Shown piece by piece: positions 36,120 to 48,757 of a DNA stretch of 64,000 nt. This DNA comes from Alkalilacustris brevis (GTDB lineage: Bacteria > Pseudomonadota > Alphaproteobacteria > Rhodobacterales > Rhodobacteraceae): positions 124,001-188,000 of the forward strand of contig NZ_QNVJ01000064.1 of NCBI RefSeq assembly GCF_003350345.1. The letters are read 5' to 3'. Both the position numbers and the translations under genes were made by a program. The notes beneath the pieces are model-generated. The model was not told the origin of the DNA, made no database searches, and saw nothing but the letters and a program-made list of their open reading frames with translations. Position 1 is the first letter of the stretch; each line of letters opens with the position of its first letter.

Positions 36120-37208
36120 TCAGCCTGCGTGCATCAGGATCGGCGGCAATTCGTCGATCAGGTCGATATCCTGCGCCGTCAGCCCAGCGCCGCCCTGCAC
36201 CTTGGCCAGCGGCACACCGTCCAGCCGTACGATCACCGCGCCCGGATCATCCGGCACGCTGTCCAGCGTGATCTGCGGGTCGGGATGCACCGCCGGGTCA
36301 TAGGCCAGCACCAGCCGGTCCTGCGCCTGATCGAAATCCTGGATCAGGGCCGTGCCTTCCTCGTCAAGCCAGCTGCCCAGCATGAAACTGTCGGCGCCGC
36401 TGCCACCATGGGCAATATCCCCCTGCCCGAGTATCAACAGATCGTCGCCCGCGCCACCGTTGAGGAAATTGGCACCGCCCACATCGCGCCCCGCGTCATC
36501 GAGCACCGCGCCGACCAACGTATCGTCGCCGGCCCCGCCGAACAGGGTCTGCCCGCCCGTGCCGGCCCGCAACAGGTCGTCGCCATACCCGCCCATCAGC
36601 GAATCCGCCCCGTCGCCGCCGATCAGCACATCATCGCCCGCGCCGCCGCGCAGCAAGTTGTCGCCGCCGCCCGCGACCAGCGTGTCACTACCCGGCCCGC
36701 CATCGAGCGTGTCATTGCCCGACCCGCCACGCAGCACATCGTCGCCGGCGCCGCCCAGCAGGTGATTGCTGCCGTCGCCCGCGTGCAAAACATCGTCGCC
36801 CACGCCGCCCGACAACGTGTCATCCCCCGCCCCGCCCCAGAGCGTATCATCGCCGTCGCCACCGGCCAGAAACGCGCCATCCGTTCCGGCGTGGAGCTCC
36901 AGGTCGGGGATGCTGACCGGCAGATCGCTGCTTTCAGGGGCATCGGGGAAAAGGCCGAGAGCGGGCTCTTCGAGGCTGTCATCCTCCCAAAGGTCAAGCA
37001 GCAGGAAATCCCATTCCGACAGCCCTTCCTCGCCGGTATCCGGCCCCAAGTCCAGGGCTCCTGCGCCCTGCGGCGTCATGGGCGCCCCGTCGCCGAACGG
37101 GTCGTCATCGTCCTCTGCCGATGCGTCGGACGTCACCGCCCCGCGCACGAACGAATCGGCGAAAACACCCGCCGCGATCAAGCCCAACACCCCTGTCAAA
37201 GCCAGCAT
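36120..37208 (-). CDS. Membrane-anchored RTX-type calcium-binding protein
   Basis: A 362-residue acidic protein. The first 20 residues form one hydrophobic helix (LALTGVLGLIAAGVFADSFV), then an acidic spacer, then at about 115-285 a dozen or so glycine-rich nonapeptides of the type GGxGxDxLx (GGDGDDTLWGGAGDDTL...) that fold into a calcium beta-roll. A C-terminal beta domain (SFMLGSWLDEEG..., LIQDFDQAQDRLVL) resembles the end domain of type I secreted RTX proteins. The N-terminal helix is unusual for a type I substrate, which needs no N-terminal signal. No ABC exporter is adjacent. Divergent from rpsO. Confidence 0.82.
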   Translation of the reverse strand: MLALTGVLGLIAAGVFADSFVRGAVTSDASAEDDDDPFGDGAPMTPQGAGALDLGPDTGEEGLSEWDFLLLDLWEDDSLEEPALGLFPDAPESSDLPVSIPDLELHAGTDGAFLAGGDGDDTLWGGAGDDTLSGGVGDDVLHAGDGSNHLLGGAGDDVLRGGSGNDTLDGGPGSDTLVAGGGDNLLRGGAGDDVLIGGDGADSLMGGYGDDLLRAGTGGQTLFGGAGDDTLVGAVLDDAGRDVGGANFLNGGAGDDLLILGQGDIAHGGSGADSFMLGSWLDEEGTALIQDFDQAQDRLVLAYDPAVHPDPQITLDSVPDDPGAVIVRLDGVPLAKVQGGAGLTAQDIDLIDELPPILMHAG

Positions 37209-39030: not shown

Positions 39031-39434
39031 CGGCGTCCCGGACGGGTCCGCTTCGAAATGGCCACGCATATTCTGCCGCTTGCGCCAAGCTCGCCCTCGG
39101 CCCGCCCGACGACCAGAGATCTGGTGACGGGGTGATCGTGCCTTTCCTTGTTCCGCACCGTTCATTGCCGGGGCAGAAATCCAGCGGCAAGCACGGCTGA
39201 TCGCGTCGGGGACGTCGCCTTCAGTTGCCGACTGTCGGTCAAGGACCGAAAGGCCACCACCCCCCACGCCCCCACTTCCCAAACCCTCGTTTTTCCTGTA
39301 TGGCCCCGACCATCTGAGACGTGACGCTCTGACCCCGGCGTGATGCGAAGGATTGGGGTCGGCGGCAATGGGGCCGCCACAGGAACGGGAGACCCGGGAT
39401 GGGCCCGGGAGCGCTCCCTTACAGGATACGTTGA
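39031..39434. other. Intergenic region and pnp leader
   Basis: About 400 bases between the acyltransferase and pnp. Overlapping short frames on both strands show no family likeness. The last 75 bases form a run of hairpins, annotated separately. No convincing promoter pair was found, although pnp must start here or be read from upstream. Confidence 0.5.
39361..39418 (+). promoter_or_regulatory. Structured pnp leader with competing hairpins
   Basis: Three stems lie in 58 bases. GGCGGC (39361-39366) pairs with GCCGCC (39373-39378). CCCGGG (39393-39398) pairs with CCCGGG (39404-39409). The perfect palindrome GGGAGCGCTCCC occupies 39407-39418. The second and third share 39407-39409, so they exclude each other. 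The ribosome site AGGAT (39423) begins five bases later. In E. coli pnp is autocontrolled through an RNase III-cut leader stem; a similar role is inferred. Confidence 0.5.
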
Positions 39435-41555
39435 ATGTTCAAAACTACCACGAAATCCATGCAATGGGGCGAGGAAACCCTCACCCTGGAAACGGGCAAG
39501 GTTGCCCGTCAGGCTGACGGCTCGGTCATCGCCACGATGGGCGAGACCTCGGTCATGGCCAATGTCACTTTCGCCCGGCAGGCGAAGCCCGGTCAGGACT
39601 TTTTCCCGCTGACCGTGCATTACCAGGAACGCTATTACGCCGCGGGCAAGGTGCCCGGCGGCTTCTTCAAGCGCGAGGCGCGCCCGTCTGAGAAGGAAAC
39701 GCTGACCTCCCGCCTGATCGACCGCCCGATCCGCCCGCTGTTTGTGGACGGCTTCAAGAACGAGGTTCTGGTCATCTGCACGGTGCTCAGCCACGATCTG
39801 GTGAACGAGCCCGACATGGTGGCGATGATCGCCGCCTCGGCCGCGCTGACCATTTCGGGCGTGCCCTTCATGGGGCCGATCGCCGCCTGCCGCGTGGGCT
39901 ATGCCGATGGGGAATACATCCTCAACCCCGAAGTCGACGACATGCAGAAGCTGCGCGAGAATTCCGAGCAGCGGCTCGACCTGGTCGTCGCCGGCACCAA
40001 GGACGCGGTGATGATGGTCGAATCCGAAGCCTACGAGCTTTCGGAAGAGGAAATGCTGGGCGCGATCAAGTTCGGCCACGAAGCCATGCAGCCGGTGATC
40101 GACCTGATCATCGACCTGGCCGAAGATGCCGCGAAAGAGCCGTTCGATTTTCAGCCGCCCGATTACAGCGCGCTTTATGAGCGGGTGAAATCGCTGGGCG
40201 AAGCGCAGATGCGCGCCGCATTCGCGATCCGCGACAAGCAGGAGCGCACCACGGCCATTTCCGCCGCGCGCGACGCCGTGAAGGCACAACTGACCGAGGA
40301 AGAGCTGGAAGACAGCAATCTCGGCGCGGCCTTCAAGAAGCTCGAATCCGCCATCCTGCGTGGCGACATCATCTCGGGCGGCGCCCGTATCGATGGCCGT
40401 GACAACCAGACCATCCGGCCGATCGTGGCCGAGGTGGGGATGCTGCCGCGCACGCATGGCTCGGCGCTGTTCACCCGTGGCGAGACCCAGGCGCTGGTCG
40501 TCTCCACGCTGGGCACCGGCGAGGACGAGCAGTTCATCGACGCGCTGACCGGCAACTCCAAGTCGAACTTCCTGCTGCACTACAACTTCCCCCCCTACTC
40601 GGTGGGCGAGGTCGGGCGCTTTGGCCCTCCGGGACGGCGCGAGATCGGCCATGGCAAGCTCGCCTGGCGGGCGCTGCAGGCAGTGCTGCCGATGGCGACC
40701 GATTTCCCCTACACCATCCGCGTCGTGTCGGAGATCACCGAGTCCAACGGGTCGTCGTCGATGGCCACGGTCTGCGGGGCGTCGCTGTCGATGATGGATG
40801 CAGGCGTGCCGCTCAAGGCGCCGGTTGCCGGTGTGGCGATGGGCCTGATCCTCGAAGAAGACGGCCGCTGGGCCGTGCTGAGCGATATTCTCGGCGACGA
40901 GGATCACCTGGGCGACATGGATTTCAAGGTCGCCGGGACCGAAGCTGGCATCACCTCGCTGCAGATGGACATCAAGGTCGCGGGCATCACCCCCGCGATC
41001 ATGGAGCAGGCGCTGGACCAGGCCAAGGCCGGGCGGATGCACATTCTCGGCGAGATGAACAAGGCGCTTTCGGCACCGCAGGGATTCTCGGAATATGCCC
41101 CGCGCATCGAGACCATGACCGTGCCCTCCGACAAGATCCGTGAAGTGATCGGCACCGGCGGCAAGGTGATCCGCGAGATTGTCGAGGTGTCGGGCGCCAA
41201 GGTCGACATCAACGACGATGGCGTGATCAAGATCGCCTCGAACAATGCCGAGGCCATCAAGAAGGCCCATGACATGATCTATGCGATCGTGGCCGAGCCC
41301 GAAGTGGGGCAGATCTATACCGGCAAGGTCGTTAAGATCGTCGATTTCGGCGCCTTCGTGAACTTCTTCGGCAAGCGCGACGGGCTGGTGCATGTCAGCC
41401 AGATCGCCAACAAGCGGCTCAACCACCCCTCCGATCTGCTCCAGGAAGGGCAGGAGGTGAAGGTCAAGCTGCTGGGCTTTGATGATCGTGGCAAGGTTCG
41501 CCTGGCGATGAAGATGGTCGACCAGGAAACCGGCGAGGAAATCGCCGCCGAGTAA
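39435..41555 (+). CDS. pnp: Polyribonucleotide nucleotidyltransferase (PNPase)
   Basis: A 706-residue phosphorolytic 3'-to-5' exoribonuclease, a trimer and usual partner of RNase E in the degradosome. It has two RNase PH domains (about 1-230 and 310-540) linked by a helical domain, a KH domain at about 555-615 with its GxxG loop in [15 protein letters not shown], and an S1 domain at about 620-695 ([20 protein letters not shown]). [20 protein letters not shown] in the second PH domain is the phosphate/active-site region. Full length, ATG at 39435 with AGGAT. A structured leader precedes it and a terminator follows. Confidence 0.98.
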
Positions 41556-41591
41556 TACCCGAAAGGCGACGCCTTTCCGCATGAACCAAGC

Positions 41592-41621
41592 AAACCCCCG
41601 GACGCTGTCGTCCGGGGGTTT
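41592..41621 (+). terminator. Rho-independent terminator after pnp
   Basis: AAACCCCCGGAC (41592-41603) pairs perfectly with GTCCGGGGGTTT (41610-41621) over a six-base loop. The symmetric A/T ends let it work on both strands, which suits the convergent CHAT gene ending at 41678. Confidence 0.85.
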
Positions 41622-41677
41622 CGCATTGCCGGCACGGGCCTGCACGGCGGGCCGAACGCCCCGTGTCGCCACTGGGG

Positions 41678-44600
41678 TCAGGGTTTGCCGAACACGCTGA
41701 ATCCCGACCAGTAGCCGGGCAGCGACATCGCATCGCTTCGGGCGATCATCGCCCGCTGCGCCCGGGCCAGCGCAAACGCCGATCCACCCTCTTCCTGACG
41801 AGCCGCGTAGAAGCCCAGCGCCAGTTCCCGCGTGGCGGTATCCTCCACCTCCCAATGCGTGGCGATGATGCTTGGCGCGCCGGCATGGTTGAAGGCCTGC
41901 GCGATCGTGCGGTGTTCGATGCCGCTGACGCCCAGCCCCGTCTCGCAGGCCGAAAGGAACACCAGTTCCGCGTTCGCAAGCGGCAGGGTCATGATTTGCG
42001 GCAGGGTCAGGCGGTGCCCGTCGGCCAGCAGCAGATAGCTGTTGCGCGGATCGCGATGATCGAGCTTGCCGTGCATCGCCAGATGCAGAAACCGCGCATC
42101 GCGCGCCCCGTCGATCAGCGCGTCGATCGTGGCGGTTTCACCGATCTTCAGATCGACGGGATCGTCAGCCAGCAGTCGGGCGATTTCCTCTGCCTCGCTG
42201 CGGGCGCCGGGCAAGCTGCCGTCGGGGTCGCCAAAGACGAGATGCCCGAAGGCGAAACCGGGCACATGCCGCAGGTGCGACTGGAGCGAATAAAGCGAGC
42301 TGGCCTTGCCGAAGGTGAAATCCTGCACGGCGTAGCGGGGGCGCGGGCCCGACAGATCGCGCACCAGCGCCCCGGCAGGAACATAGCTGAGCACCCCGGT
42401 CGGCGCCACGAGAACCAGATCAAAGGGTGCAAGCGCGTGTTCGACCGGCCGCAGAAGCTGATCGTAAAGCCACGCCAGATCGCGGTTGAGCCGTTCAGCG
42501 GCCGCATCGTCGAGCCCTGGCACACCAAGCGCAACCCCCGAACGCATCTGCCCGCCGGCGCCCCCCTCGTCGGGCGCGGGTTGGTCATTGCCGCCCGAAA
42601 GACCGCCGGACTGCGCACCAGAGAGCAAAGTCGCCAGATCGCTCAGGTCGCCGCCGTCAGGCAAGGCGTCGCCCCCCCTGCCCGCCGCGCCGCCAATCCG
42701 CCCCGCGGCCTGTTCAGCAAGCGCGGTCGCAGCACGGCGTGTGACCGCCTCAAGCTCCTGGCGCGTCACGTCGACCTGACGGATCTCCTGCCCCTCGCGC
42801 GAGATCAGGTTGAGATAGAGCGCCCGCTCGCCCGGCAGGAACTGAAGCACCGCAACACCATCAGGAAGCTCGCGGCCCAGCGCCTGCAAGTCCAGCGGGT
42901 TGATCTGAAGCATCGCGAAAAGCGCGGGCTCGCTTCGCTCCAGATCGGCAAGAAAGGCGATGTCGCGCTGCCGGAGTTGCGCGATGCGGCGCTCGATCTG
43001 GCCGGCGCCGCTGCCGCCGCGATCCCCGCCCAGGGCCAGTTCCTCCTCCAGCCTTGCAAGCTGACGGCGGATTTCGCGAAACGCCTCCAGCCGCTGCCCT
43101 GCGTCGCTGTCGGGCGGAAGCGCCTCAAGCAGGATATCGCTCACTTCGGCCATCTTGCGGCTTTCAAGGGCCGAAAAGGCAAAATTTCCCTGCGCCTCGC
43201 CGATCAGGAATGCCTCCGGCCCGGCGCCGCGCGGGTCGTAAACGGTCACGCCGAAATCGGTCGCCATGTAGATCCGGCCCAGCGGGTCGGTCTCGATGCC
43301 GCGCATTGCGCGCCCACCATAGGCGGCGTGCTGCTGCGCGGGCAGCATCCAGTTCAGGCGCTCGGGGTAAAACCAGACCCCATCGCGATACCCGACGACA
43401 CCGCCCGCGGTTCCGAAAAGATAAAGGCCATCCCCCAGGTGCACGCCCTCGGTCCCCAGGTGCAGCGCCAGTTCCCGGCTGCGAAGCGCGAGGTAGCTGG
43501 CATCCTCGGCAAGACGCAGGTCCTGAAACCTTGCCTGCGAATGAATGGCAAAACCGCTGTTTGTCCCGACGATGGCACGGCCGTCTTCCAACGGCGTGTA
43601 GCCGGTAAGAAACCAGCCGCCGATGACATCATCGCCCACCGGATGGAAACCCTCGCCATCATATTCGAACAACCCGCCTGACAGGATGATGCCGTTCCAG
43701 ATGCGATGGGCCTCGTTCGAGGCCACCAGCAGGATGCGCCCATCGGTCGTTTCCACAAGCCGCGAGAGCATGTCGGAGCGGACATCGAAATAGGGCTGAC
43801 GCAGGAAAACGCTGAATTCCTTCGCCTGGCTTTCGCCTTCGCGCAGCCTGAAAAGGCTGGGGCCGGTCAGCACCCATATGGTGTTTTCGCGATCGACGAG
43901 AATCTGCCGCACCTCGGTCGAAGTGCCGGTGATGCTCTGCCCAGGGCGCGCGTCAAACAGTTCCAACGTGTCAAACTGGCCGTCATCGCGCGGGGTCATG
44001 CGCAGGATGCGCGCGCCGTCATTCACAAGCAGCGTGCCATCGGGGCCGCTGGTCATGGCCGTCGTCTCGGTGAAGGTGACAGGCTGGGGCGGCGCGAAAG
44101 GGTCCTGGTGGTCAATCGCGCGTATGCCGCCCCATGAGCTGGCCACAAGTGTCGCGCCAAGGTCGGGCCGCGTCAGCATGGCGGTGACGTCGGCTTCCAG
44201 CACCAGCCGCGCATCGGCTTCCTCCAGCACCGAAACACCCCGTTGGGTGGCCAGCAACAGCCGGTGCCCCGACACGTCAAGCGCCGAGACGGGCTCGATC
44301 CGGTCCTGGCCGGGCAGTTCGAAATGCTCGAAACGCTCGTCACGATAGAGCGAGACCCCCTGATCGGTGCGCACACCGAGCGCTGTTTCCCCCTCGAAGA
44401 CCGGCACTTCCGAGAAACCGTATATCCGCCCGCCCTGGGCGATGGTTTCCTGCTCGGGCAGCACCCTGAAACGCAGCGGCCCCTCGGGCATTACGGCCCC
44501 CTCAAGAACCTGCGCGCCCCGAATGGCCAGTATCCGCCCCTGCCACACAATGATGTCTGTCAATTGCTCGTCACTCAGCAAGCGGATGCCGTCGGGGCCG

Positions 44601-47600
44601 ATCAACTCAACACGGTCCTGCCGGCCGATGACCAGCTCATCCTCGTTGATCGCACGCAACCAGAGGACGGCCTCGCGGCTTTCCAGAGCCGGCACGGCAT
44701 CCGGCTGCATCGACACCCGCGCAAGCCCGCCCGCGCCGCCGACCCACAGTGTTTCACCTGTCGCAGCCATGGCGCTTACGGCGCCCTCGGGCATACCGGT
44801 GCTCCCCTGCGCGCGGATTTCAGGCGGATCGGTATAATCGCCCCCCAGCCGCATCAGGCCACCGGCAGTGCCCAGCCAGAGCGCACCGCCATCATCCTCG
44901 AACATCGCATGAATGGTCGAATAGGCCTCGGCCCGGTCATAATCCAGATTGGGCGAAAACCTGCCCGCCGAGCGGTCGAATCCGTGCCACTCCCAGAACC
45001 CGCGGCGCATGACCGAGAGGCCGCGCTGCGTGCCCACCAGCAGATCGCCGTTTGCACGCACCAGAACCGCATTGGTCGCCGCAAGCCCCTCGAGCGCGGG
45101 CGGAACAACGGCCCCCTGCCGGTGATGCCGCCACAAGCCGGGATTCGACAGGAAAGAGTTGCGCAGCCACCCGCCCGTCGAAAGCCTGCGCAGCGGGGCC
45201 TCGGCAAAGGCTGCGGCAAGCGCGCGGGCCTCGTCCGTGCCCTGTTCCAACGCCCAGTCGCGCATCTCGAGCCAGTTTCGCCATTCATCCTGCGGCAGCC
45301 CCTCATCAAAGACATCGCGCGCCATGGCGTGCCACAGCCCGACCGCCTCAAGCCCCTGGGCAGACGTTGCTCCCGGACGGCCGTCGATCGCGTCAAAGAT
45401 CAGCGGCCGGACAGTATCGAATAGTTCCGCCGCATGGCCGGGCTGCGCAGCACGCTTTGCATAAAGGTCACGAGCAAGCGCAAGCGCTGCCTCAGGCTCG
45501 ACGCCGAGGTCGCTCCAATACCCGTCACGCAACGCATCAAGTTCTTCGTCTTCAAAGGGCAGTTCGCTGAAGTTTGCCTGCTGCTCGGCAAGCTGGATCA
45601 TCGAAAGCAATTGCTGAAAGGCCTGCGTCACCTGCAGGGCGATCCGCGTGTCGCTGCCCCCTTCGCCCTCTGCCTTGCCCTCCACGCGCAGAATTTCGCC
45701 ATGCGCATCATACTCCACGCTGATCGCACCAATGCCCTCAATGCGGATGTGAACCGGGAGCCCCTGTTCGTTATACGTGAAATACAGTGCCTCATGGCCG
45801 TCAGCCTGAAGCTCCACGATATTGCGGCCGGCCATCGGATCAAGCGGCCCGTCGTCATAGCCAAGGCGCACCGATTGGCCCGTTCCGGTGCGAATCTCTG
45901 TCAGATGCAGCCCGTCCCGATAGGTGAACTCGACCCAGGCGGCCCCGACGCGCAGATAGGTCAGAGCGCCCGTAACCGGGTGGTAGCGGCGTTCTTCCAT
46001 GATCCCGTCGGGACGGCGAAGCACGACAGTTGCCGCCTCGAAATCGATCCGGCTGAGAACATTATGCGCGCCACCATGCGCGCTTGCGCGCGCGCTCTCC
46101 AGCCAGCGCACATACCTGTCACTTGGCGAGACCGAACCGGCACGGGAATAGCGAAGCTCGTAAGCCTCGCGATACAGGCCAAGGCTGCTCAGGGCCGAGC
46201 CGCGAATGCTGTCATTGCCTGTGCCGGGGTTTGCACGGTCATTCCGCTCGAGCAGATCCAGCGCCACCACTGGCGATCCCCCCCAGCGCGCGTGGCGCTC
46301 GGCCACTTCGCGCAGGCGGCTGCCGTCACGGGGCGCACGGTCGAGGTATTCATGGGCCGCCACGAAGGCATAACCGCCGATCCTCAGATTCTCGCGCACG
46401 TCGGCATCGAAAAACCGCTTCCAGGCCTCTTCGTCATTCAAGGTGTGGGCTTTCAACACCGCCTCGGTCGACTCCGACGAGGGGCCTATCCGCCCCAGCG
46501 TCAGGCGGCGTTGCAGCCAGTAGTTCCTCGCGCCCAGACCGTGGTGACGCGCCATCTCGATATCGTCCAGCACCTGCTCCGCATGTGGCTGCGCCTCCAC
46601 GCGTCGGTGCCGGATCGCGCCATCGCGGGTAATCGCACGGGCATCGTAGAGGCGGCTCAGTTCGCCCGAAAGCGCCTGTCCGGCCTCAAGCGCCGTGATG
46701 CCCTCGTTAAGTATTGCGACCGCTTCAGCCCAGTTTTCGAGTTCGTCACCCTGAACTTCGCGGGCCTCTTCCACCCAGCCGAACGCGGAGCGCGGCGCCG
46801 CTTCGCGTGCGCGTTGCCAGATAGCCCCGGCATCAGGCGAAAGGCGGGCAAGCTCACGCCACATATGGAGCGAATGGGGAAACTGCCGAAGCGCCGCCTC
46901 AAGCACCTCTCTTGCTTCGTCCTCGCGCCCGGTGTCGCGGGCATAATCAGCCAGGCGGGCCAGGGTCCAGCCGGTGAACCGCCCCTGCGCGGTCATACCC
47001 GCCAGCAATTCAAACGCCTCCGGGCTGCGACCGGCGGCATTCAGATCGAAAGCGAAATTGCCCTCGACCCAGACCGCGTCCGGGGCATCCCGCCGGACCA
47101 GAGGCAAGAGTTGTGGCGTATCGCCCGCCCGGCCCAGCGATAAAAGCGCAGAGCGCCAGGTGTTGATCTGCTCTACCGTCAGCCGTTGCCCCGATTGCAG
47201 CCACGCCTGCGCCAACCCCGCACCTTCGGCATGGCGCCCGGCCTGGTTCAGAGCTGTGGCAAGCTCTTGATGGGCCAGGCGGAAGGCCGGATCGGCGGTT
47301 GCCACGGGCATCAGCAGTTCCACGACCTCGTCGGGGCGAGCCTCGTCACGAACGACAAGGGCCAACGCCAGGGCCAGGTCCGGGTCATCGGGGAAAGCCT
47401 CGAGCACCTCCAGCGCCACCGCGCGGGCTTTGCCAAGCTCCCCGGCGATGCGCAGCCCGGTGATCATGCTCAGCGCGGCCTGCCTGTCGCGGGCCTCCGG
47501 CGCGAAACTGCGCGCGGCACGCTGTTCGATTTCGCCGGGCAAGTCATCGAAACGACGCGTCAATGCCAACCCGCGCGCGACAAGCGCGGTGTTGAACCGT

Positions 47601-48430
47601 ATGAAAGGGTAGGCCTGCTCGGCCCGCAGCATGTAATCGAGCGCCGTTTCGAAATCCTGCGTGTCGATATATTGGTAATACATCCGCCGCAGCGCGTTGG
47701 TGTCATTTGGCGTGTGTTCCAGCCAGGCATGCACCGCCTGGCGGATATCGGCCGCCTCGGCGCGCGGGGTCGCGGCGCGCCAGTCGCGAAACGTCTGCGC
47801 CGCGCCGCCGCCAACGGTCGCGCCATCCAGCCCGGAGGCCGGTATGGACCAGGCCAGGCCGAAATCACCCGGGTAAAGCGTCGCGGCGCGTGCCTGTATC
47901 TGCTGCAGTTCTGCGCCCTGCGCGGACCCGGCAAGTTCGAACATGGACCAGTAGTCCGACACCCCCAGATCGAGCGCCGCCTGCGCAAGTTCGGTCACAT
48001 CGTCGTCTTGGCGATACTGCTCACTCTGAAAGATGCGCAGGGCGATCTCCTTGCGCCGGGCACGCTCGGGCGGCAATGCGCCGGGCAGCTCGGGCAGTTG
48101 GGTTGCGCTGACCTCACCCTGCGCCTGTTTCAACGAGAACCAGACATGGATGCTCATCGGGTGGGTCTCGTTCCCCAGCAGATCGGCCTCGACCTCTTGG
48201 ACAAGGGTTTGCAGATCATCCGGCCCCTGCAGGAACGCCGCTGACCACCTCCTGATCCGCGGGTCTGCGAAAAGGTCGGTGGCGCCCTCCAGCTGTGCGG
48301 ACGCAAGCCTCTGCGGCAGGTAGAGCCCGGCGCCCTCGGCCCGTGCCACCGAGGCAAGCGCGGTCGCGGCGACAACAAGCACACTCAGAAATGCAATGAT
48401 CCGGCAATTCATCGTTTGAAGGGGATGCAT
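41678..48430 (-). CDS. Giant exported TPR / beta-propeller / CHAT (caspase-like) protein
   Basis: A 2250-residue protein. A signal peptide (MNCRIIAFLSVLVVAATALA, ending SVARA near residue 31) indicates export. Residues about 40-780 are helical TPR-like repeats. About 800-915 is a beta-rich YD/RHS-like stretch (RRPDGIMEERRYHPVTGALTYL, split as RRPDGIMEERRYH and PVTGALTYL; also YFTYNEQGLPVHIRIEG). About 1115-1730 is a propeller of two-component-sensor type (GALWLGTAGGLMRLGGDY). After a coiled segment and a Gly-rich linker, the C-terminal CHAT domain (about 1840-2250) has catalytic His2120 (HLAMHGKLDH) and Cys2162 (FLSACETGLG). CHAT domains are caspase/separase-like proteases. Start 48430 has AAGG six bases upstream. 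No partner gene is adjacent; the target is unknown. Confidence 0.88.
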   Translation of the reverse strand: MHPLQTMNCRIIAFLSVLVVAATALASVARAEGAGLYLPQRLASAQLEGATDLFADPRIRRWSAAFLQGPDDLQTLVQEVEADLLGNETHPMSIHVWFSLKQAQGEVSATQLPELPGALPPERARRKEIALRIFQSEQYRQDDDVTELAQAALDLGVSDYWSMFELAGSAQGAELQQIQARAATLYPGDFGLAWSIPASGLDGATVGGGAAQTFRDWRAATPRAEAADIRQAVHAWLEHTPNDTNALRRMYYQYIDTQDFETALDYMLRAEQAYPFIRFNTALVARGLALTRRFDDLPGEIEQRAARSFAPEARDRQAALSMITGLRIAGELGKARAVALEVLEAFPDDPDLALALALVVRDEARPDEVVELLMPVATADPAFRLAHQELATALNQAGRHAEGAGLAQAWLQSGQRLTVEQINTWRSALLSLGRAGDTPQLLPLVRRDAPDAVWVEGNFAFDLNAAGRSPEAFELLAGMTAQGRFTGWTLARLADYARDTGREDEAREVLEAALRQFPHSLHMWRELARLSPDAGAIWQRAREAAPRSAFGWVEEAREVQGDELENWAEAVAILNEGITALEAGQALSGELSRLYDARAITRDGAIRHRRVEAQPHAEQVLDDIEMARHHGLGARNYWLQRRLTLGRIGPSSESTEAVLKAHTLNDEEAWKRFFDADVRENLRIGGYAFVAAHEYLDRAPRDGSRLREVAERHARWGGSPVVALDLLERNDRANPGTGNDSIRGSALSSLGLYREAYELRYSRAGSVSPSDRYVRWLESARASAHGGAHNVLSRIDFEAATVVLRRPDGIMEERRYHPVTGALTYLRVGAAWVEFTYRDGLHLTEIRTGTGQSVRLGYDDGPLDPMAGRNIVELQADGHEALYFTYNEQGLPVHIRIEGIGAISVEYDAHGEILRVEGKAEGEGGSDTRIALQVTQAFQQLLSMIQLAEQQANFSELPFEDEELDALRDGYWSDLGVEPEAALALARDLYAKRAAQPGHAAELFDTVRPLIFDAIDGRPGATSAQGLEAVGLWHAMARDVFDEGLPQDEWRNWLEMRDWALEQGTDEARALAAAFAEAPLRRLSTGGWLRNSFLSNPGLWRHHRQGAVVPPALEGLAATNAVLVRANGDLLVGTQRGLSVMRRGFWEWHGFDRSAGRFSPNLDYDRAEAYSTIHAMFEDDGGALWLGTAGGLMRLGGDYTDPPEIRAQGSTGMPEGAVSAMAATGETLWVGGAGGLARVSMQPDAVPALESREAVLWLRAINEDELVIGRQDRVELIGPDGIRLLSDEQLTDIIVWQGRILAIRGAQVLEGAVMPEGPLRFRVLPEQETIAQGGRIYGFSEVPVFEGETALGVRTDQGVSLYRDERFEHFELPGQDRIEPVSALDVSGHRLLLATQRGVSVLEEADARLVLEADVTAMLTRPDLGATLVASSWGGIRAIDHQDPFAPPQPVTFTETTAMTSGPDGTLLVNDGARILRMTPRDDGQFDTLELFDARPGQSITGTSTEVRQILVDRENTIWVLTGPSLFRLREGESQAKEFSVFLRQPYFDVRSDMLSRLVETTDGRILLVASNEAHRIWNGIILSGGLFEYDGEGFHPVGDDVIGGWFLTGYTPLEDGRAIVGTNSGFAIHSQARFQDLRLAEDASYLALRSRELALHLGTEGVHLGDGLYLFGTAGGVVGYRDGVWFYPERLNWMLPAQQHAAYGGRAMRGIETDPLGRIYMATDFGVTVYDPRGAGPEAFLIGEAQGNFAFSALESRKMAEVSDILLEALPPDSDAGQRLEAFREIRRQLARLEEELALGGDRGGSGAGQIERRIAQLRQRDIAFLADLERSEPALFAMLQINPLDLQALGRELPDGVAVLQFLPGERALYLNLISREGQEIRQVDVTRQELEAVTRRAATALAEQAAGRIGGAAGRGGDALPDGGDLSDLATLLSGAQSGGLSGGNDQPAPDEGGAGGQMRSGVALGVPGLDDAAAERLNRDLAWLYDQLLRPVEHALAPFDLVLVAPTGVLSYVPAGALVRDLSGPRPRYAVQDFTFGKASSLYSLQSHLRHVPGFAFGHLVFGDPDGSLPGARSEAEEIARLLADDPVDLKIGETATIDALIDGARDARFLHLAMHGKLDHRDPRNSYLLLADGHRLTLPQIMTLPLANAELVFLSACETGLGVSGIEHRTIAQAFNHAGAPSIIATHWEVEDTATRELALGFYAARQEEGGSAFALARAQRAMIARSDAMSLPGYWSGFSVFGKP

Positions 48431-48757
48431 CTCCGGCCTTCTCCCTGGCAAAAATATCTCGGGTCTGCTCTCGCCCGGCCAATCGGGAACGATCCTAAGC
48501 CGATTCAATCGGCTGGCGGAAAGAAAAAATGTATCAACACCGCATGATCAGCCGTGAAGCCGATCGTGATGCGCGGATTTGAAAAGCACCAGCCGCGCCC
48601 GATATCATAACCTGTATTCCACAGGCAGGCAGGCAGTTGCTCGCAGGCGCGGCGGCCCAGCACCTCTGGGCGTGCCAAACGCCTGCCGACGCTGCGAGGC
48701 ACCCTTGCCACTGCTGCGCGGGGGTGCCAAGTTGCTGCCAAACCACAGGAGGCCCGA
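48431..48757. other. Divergent promoter region between the CHAT gene and aldehyde dehydrogenase
   Basis: A 327-base gap holding the starts of two divergent transcripts. Apart from the degenerate repeat at 48437-48468, I see no further gene. Frames on the minus strand that extend the CHAT protein upstream lack a ribosome site. No clear -35/-10 pair was identified for either gene. Confidence 0.5.
48437..48468 (+). repeat. Degenerate intergenic repeat, copy 3
   Basis: Contains TTCTCCCTGGCAAAAATATC then TCGGG, next to the CHAT gene start. It shares CTGGCAAAAATATC with the other copies, but its CGCCGGAGGC tail is not preserved, so this is the weakest member. Confidence 0.38.

Follow-up and report, generated by a model that had tools for sequence, protein, structure and literature searches.

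A giant gene of Alkalilacustris brevis encodes an exported-type protein that joins a TPR-type solenoid and a sensor-type propeller to a C-terminal CHAT protease domain, and it is coupled at the gene level to an exported DUF900 alpha/beta hydrolase. The two genes have an operon-like order in five genomes, and an orthologue of the hydrolase lies elsewhere in the genome of the window (the whole 64,000-nucleotide stretch of DNA analyzed here). This coupling suggests an undescribed extracytoplasmic system made up of a protease and a hydrolase. Our literature search returned no paper joining the CHAT domain with DUF900, and the matches for CHAT domain and beta hydrolase, judged by title and abstract, contained none that was relevant. 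The new elements are the pairing of exported CHAT or C14 proteases with DUF900 hydrolases and the giant sensor architecture.

We located the gene at 41678..48430 on the minus strand, where an ATG at 48430 opens a frame of 2250 amino acids (stop codon included in the coordinates). An earlier, sequence-only reading had described a frame of this length and left the strand unnamed; our ORF check confirmed the frame and placed it on the minus strand, as stops close the plus strand over the same interval. Counted from an in-frame TTG at 48508, the ORF covers 41678-48508 and gains 26 amino acids. The downstream gene, pnp, is convergent and the upstream gene, aldehyde-dehydrogenase-like, is divergent, and thus the CHAT gene stands alone. 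We weighed an 897-amino-acid ORF at 39162-41855 on the minus strand as a possible operon partner and discarded it because it is the antisense of pnp. A GC-rich hairpin read from the sequence at 41592..41620 (minus strand), in the gap that separates the stop codon from pnp, is a probable terminator common to both genes; a pattern-based promoter and terminator scan missed it. Elsewhere in the window, 36120-37208 on the minus strand encodes a protein with an N-terminal hydrophobic segment and many GGDGDD-type (RTX-like calcium-binding) repeats.

The Pfam scan and the N-terminus score bore out the proposed order of signal peptide, TPR region, sensor-type propeller and C-terminal CHAT domain, with curated cut-offs exceeded for CHAT (E 1.2e-50), Reg_prop (E 1.6e-6) and TPR_14 (E 4e-6). 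AlphaFold2 was run on two halves with an alignment of only six sequences, and gave a mean pLDDT of 75.6 for the N-terminal half, which is usable, and of 54 for the C-terminal half, which is mostly of low confidence. Because the C-terminal model is poor, Foldseek supports only the propeller there, and active-site geometry is left unclaimed. The alpha-solenoid spans approximately residues 70-784 (46079..48223, minus strand, as are all features below), based on the AlphaFold2 model (pLDDT of 80-94 for most of the stretch before about residue 640), Foldseek matches to TPR solenoids, and TPR_14. It is followed in the model by a region of antiparallel beta strands with a YD/Rhs-like look and no Pfam match (approximately residues 791-920; 45671..46060) and by a helical connector (approximately residues 927-1077; 45200..45652).

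The propeller region covers approximately residues 1119-1734 (43229..45076), based on Reg_prop, a sequence-profile match to 4a2l (E 1.5e-14), and a Foldseek match to BT4663 (E 5.6e-18) obtained from the low-confidence model. Its length would suit about 14 blades, that is, two seven-bladed propellers, and its nearest solved relatives by profile search and Foldseek are the periplasmic sensors BT4663, BT3049, and BT4673. A helical (coiled) segment and the first strands of the CHAT region follow at approximately residues 1737-1908 (42707..43222), as predicted by the low-confidence C-terminal model, and are strongly conserved in sequence (RQRDIA.LA.LE and MLQ.NPLDL). A long Gly-rich insertion (GRIGGAAGRGGDALPDGGDLS...GGAGGQ) lies before the CHAT core, at 42500-42690; its length differs among orthologues, and it could be a processing site. 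The CHAT domain itself comprises residues 1984-2248 (41687..42481; PF12770, 173 bits against a cut-off of 24).

Six full-length orthologues are known including the window protein, all from Rhodobacteraceae. A scan of 84,980 species, queried with a four-sequence alignment and possibly leaving out the window genome's own records, returned five loci, in Shimia aestuarii, bacterium Alg231_30, Roseovarius sp. ZX-A-9, Shimia litoralis, and Rhodobacter aestuarii; it relies on short conserved patterns, so relatives can be missed. A scan of genome contigs with the single window sequence as query gave no loci, and a plasmid search with the whole protein gave no full-length relative, the matches listed spanning the CHAT domain only. 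The orthologues align across their whole length at 37-40% identity, and full comparison of four of them gave 38-56% identity. Among 391 sampled genomes of the order, four carry the giant gene, the window's own counted, and the one congener sampled (G199) lacks it.

The absence of a partner gene, as first reported for this DNA, holds at the window locus and fails elsewhere: in all five other orthologous loci, the gene for an exported DUF900 hydrolase lies directly upstream of the giant on the same strand, with a gap of 28-160 nt. The family assignment is PF05990 (E 1.5e-44; E 2.1e-39 for the copy in the window's genome). All eight hydrolases have the nucleophile elbow AHSMGN, along with conserved Ser/Asp/His-type motifs, and the three first compared are 59-67% identical. 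The closest orthologue in the window's genome, on another contig, has 53% identity (E 2.8e-155). A close hydrolase occurs in 5 of the 391 genomes, including all 4 that bear the giant (Fisher p 5e-9, a test that ignores relatedness and linkage), so the unlinked case in the window's genome has the most independent weight. One copy, in S. litoralis (L040), lacks a neighboring protease. DUF900 is described as a family of unknown function (PMC11878206), so the label "lipase" reflects the fold alone.

The protease beside the hydrolase can also be of another family. In the fifth hydrolase genome, which lacks the giant (G507), the hydrolase gene lies about 4 nt from that of a C14 caspase with a Tat-type (twin-arginine) signal. 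An orthologue of this caspase (45% over 758 amino acids) is present in the window's genome, where its gene, also Tat-type, follows that of a trypsin-type protease (contig C97, L112:7091-10495). Two Sulfitobacter plasmids carry CHAT, C14, and a more distant DUF900 hydrolase together, in SK012 with a WD40 protein that has a caspase-like C-terminal end and in THAF37 with an MscS channel and a WD40-C14 fusion. The THAF37 fusion (L102:11431-15849) is of exported type, has a WD40 propeller, and ends in a C14 caspase, an architectural parallel to the propeller-CHAT fusion of the window. N-termini resembling signal peptides are present on the Sulfitobacter proteases and hydrolases. The Sulfitobacter and G507 loci thus resemble those of the giant in placing an exported caspase-fold protease side by side with an exported DUF900 hydrolase, and differ in that their proteases belong to family C14 of the caspase clan instead of CHAT and are shorter. 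Plasmids of Hymenobacter GOD-10R and Streptomyces canus share the adjacency, with a CHAT gene next to and divergent from the gene of a likewise more distant DUF900 hydrolase, but as annotated these pairs have no evident signal peptide and are apparently cytoplasmic versions.

Generic DUF900 genes lack this proximity to a caspase-fold protease. The control covered 121 genomes of the order and counted DUF900 genes only where C14 or CHAT is encoded as well; of 86 such genes, none lay within 15 kb of a C14 or CHAT gene. In the subfamily of the present hydrolase, 6 of 8 loci did (Fisher p 1e-9 against a fuller control count of 149, which was made by eye, the 8 loci not being phylogenetically independent). 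The other nine plasmid DUF900 matches inspected show no CHAT or C14 neighbor in their annotation. More distant relatives from the same order (37-41% identity; L041-L049) had no CHAT by local profile and were excluded from the supporting evidence. One of these loci (L044:5114-11784) holds another protease-hydrolase cluster, in which the distant DUF900 hydrolase has as neighbors a patatin, a metallo-beta-lactamase-fold protein, and a protease of the subtilase family (S8).

The reading we prefer, to which we give about an even chance, is that a periplasmic (or outer) sensor-protease acts with the exported DUF900 hydrolase, most likely its substrate or co-effector, and that cleavage by the CHAT domain activates or releases the hydrolase. 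A Sec signal peptide would take the giant across the inner membrane into the periplasm, and possibly farther. There, the TPR solenoid and the propeller, which is of the type found in hybrid two-component systems, may bind a protein or ligand, and together they may restrain the C-terminal protease or present its substrate. On a trigger, the CHAT domain would cleave the separately encoded hydrolase, which would then attack envelope lipids or other esters. We infer the protease activity, the hydrolase as substrate, its action on lipids, and the trigger. Activation of the hydrolase is the most economical account because this partner is kept while the protease changes from CHAT to C14. Against it, the giant and the hydrolase are unlinked in the window's genome, where either of two other exported CHAT proteins or the Tat-exported C14 caspase might pair with the hydrolase instead. 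Our analysis turned up neither a cleavage site nor an inhibitory segment or interface.

Protease and hydrolase may instead be parallel effectors that each hit a third party (a phage, predator, competitor, or host) and are co-encoded for shared timing, an explanation we consider possible but distinctly less probable than activation. In Sulfitobacter and Shimia, genes for several exported proteases (CHAT, C14, trypsin) lie together with those for exported lipid hydrolases (DUF900 or patatin), in loci that resemble effector arsenals, but tight two-gene pairing and the exchange of CHAT for C14 beside the same hydrolase are more specific than a mixed arsenal. The Shimia loci in question are separate from those of the giant. 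In S. aestuarii (L120:3267-15916), a trypsin, two C14 caspases, a patatin, a histidine kinase, and a CHAT protein are encoded together, and S. litoralis (L121:1346-18449) has the same set with a single C14 caspase; most of these proteins have export-type N-termini, and that of the patatin phospholipase is lipoprotein-like.

We consider it unlikely that the genes form a module for quality control in the periplasm or for osmotic stress, with the protease processing envelope proteins and an MscS-type channel taking part. Such a channel gene does adjoin the hydrolase gene in Sulfitobacter THAF37 (L102:9345-11345), at the second S. litoralis copy (L040:7003-9084), and in S. aestuarii and Rh. aestuarii (which account for L024:2711-4768 and L020:2639-4705), but none lies near the window CHAT gene or near the unlinked hydrolase of its genome, and the patchy distribution of the giant, present in so few sampled genomes and absent from the congener, speaks against housekeeping.

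The catalytic residues proposed for the CHAT domain were both found at their positions in the 2250-residue numbering: His2120 in HLAMHGKLDH (codon 42071..42073) and Cys2162 in LSACETGLG (codon 41945..41947). The profile cut-off and this His/Cys pair both assign the protein to CHAT (PF12770). We looked for loss of the pair in orthologues, which would have spoken against a protease, and found both residues kept in 6 of 6. HetF, the CHAT namesake, is a predicted membrane protein with one transmembrane segment and acts through binding of the divisome (PMC8406250). By this precedent, the giant solenoid-propeller protein, scaffold-like as it is, could have little or no protease activity, with the CHAT fold serving complex assembly. 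This is improbable given that the His and Cys are invariant in six otherwise distant orthologues and that the catalytic Cys is the sole Cys of the mature window protein.

Export is predicted by a signal peptide at residues 1-31 (48338..48430; MNCRIIAFLSVLVVAATALASVARA) with an A-R-A cleavage motif and predicted cleavage after Ala31 (between VARA and EG). Of 5000 shuffles of this N-terminus, 4 attained its simple signal-peptide score. The score is crude, reaching 3.5 or more in 14 of 99 called genes of four regions, so it was used together with orthologue conservation and Cys content and never alone. A signal-peptide-like N-terminus is present in all six orthologues, window protein included, and our search for cases without one found none among them. 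The mature window protein has 1 Cys, the catalytic one, against about 20 expected from the window's other genes; mature orthologues have either the catalytic Cys alone or the catalytic Cys plus one pair spaced by eight residues. The composition fits an oxidizing compartment, as would be expected for an exported cysteine protease, although exported proteins commonly contain few Cys. The export-type N-termini of six divergent orthologues, the Cys depletion, and the periplasmic relatives of the propeller make it very improbable, despite the in-frame TTG upstream, that the hydrophobic stretch is an uncleaved anchor or that the true start lies elsewhere, with the protein not released to the periplasm.

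The initial view of an exported sensor-plus-CHAT fusion is therefore supported by the N-termini, the retained His/Cys pair, the propeller relatives, and the Cys content. Its view of CHAT export as exceptional did not survive: of 20 CHAT proteins sampled from Rhodobacterales, at least 11 have signal-peptide-like N-termini (two judged by eye), and the same holds for the other two encoded in the window's genome (3 of 3 with the giant). Given how common CHAT export is in this order, the surprise lies in the pairing of protease and hydrolase and not in export alone.

Among solved CHAT sequences, the nearest is Csx29 of the type III-E CRISPR system (Craspase), which likewise has a TPR-type helical part and a C-terminal CHAT domain with a His/Cys pair. 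Csx29 is cytosolic and bound to Cas7-11, whereas the window protein has an export signal and a propeller. It scores 26.3 bits against the cut-off of 300 for the Csx29 family model NF041237, and no Cas7-11 (gRAMP) gene is present among its adjacent genes, pnp and the aldehyde-dehydrogenase-like gene (judged by reading). Like the periplasmic sensor domains of hybrid two-component systems (BT4663, BT3049, BT4673), it has a Reg_prop propeller in an exported part. Unlike these sensors, it has no transmembrane kinase, and its Pfam scan contains no histidine kinase output domain; the output would be a protease on the same polypeptide.

In gasdermin systems, a protease activates a membrane-attacking partner, and the CHAT protease of the window could act in the same way. 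Such gasdermin-activating and conflict-system proteases act inside the cell and are often associated with NTPases or adaptor domains. We recognized no NTPases or adaptor domains among the orthologue neighbors scanned, which were a part of all neighbors, and the window protein had no confident match to the anti-phage defense families of PADLOC-DB (only BovA, E 0.066). Caspase-like effectors of conflict systems are attributed to Kaur et al. 2020 in PMC8195603, and alpha/beta hydrolases have been proposed as membrane-lipid effectors (PMC8195603).

A broader reading, which we offer tentatively, is that exported caspase-fold proteases (CHAT or C14 with solenoid or propeller sensors) switch on exported lipid-cleaving hydrolases of the DUF900 or patatin type in the envelope, with MscS as an accessory, possibly in cell death or defense. 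Such a system would be an extracytoplasmic counterpart of protease-activated membrane attack.

Bacterial caspase-fold proteases have been studied mostly as cytosolic effectors. Here, an exported protease bears its own sensor modules, gene order ties it to a hydrolase family of unknown function, and the protease part is exchangeable between CHAT and C14. The targets of exported caspase-like proteins and the role of DUF900 hydrolases, two separate questions, thus become one testable pair.
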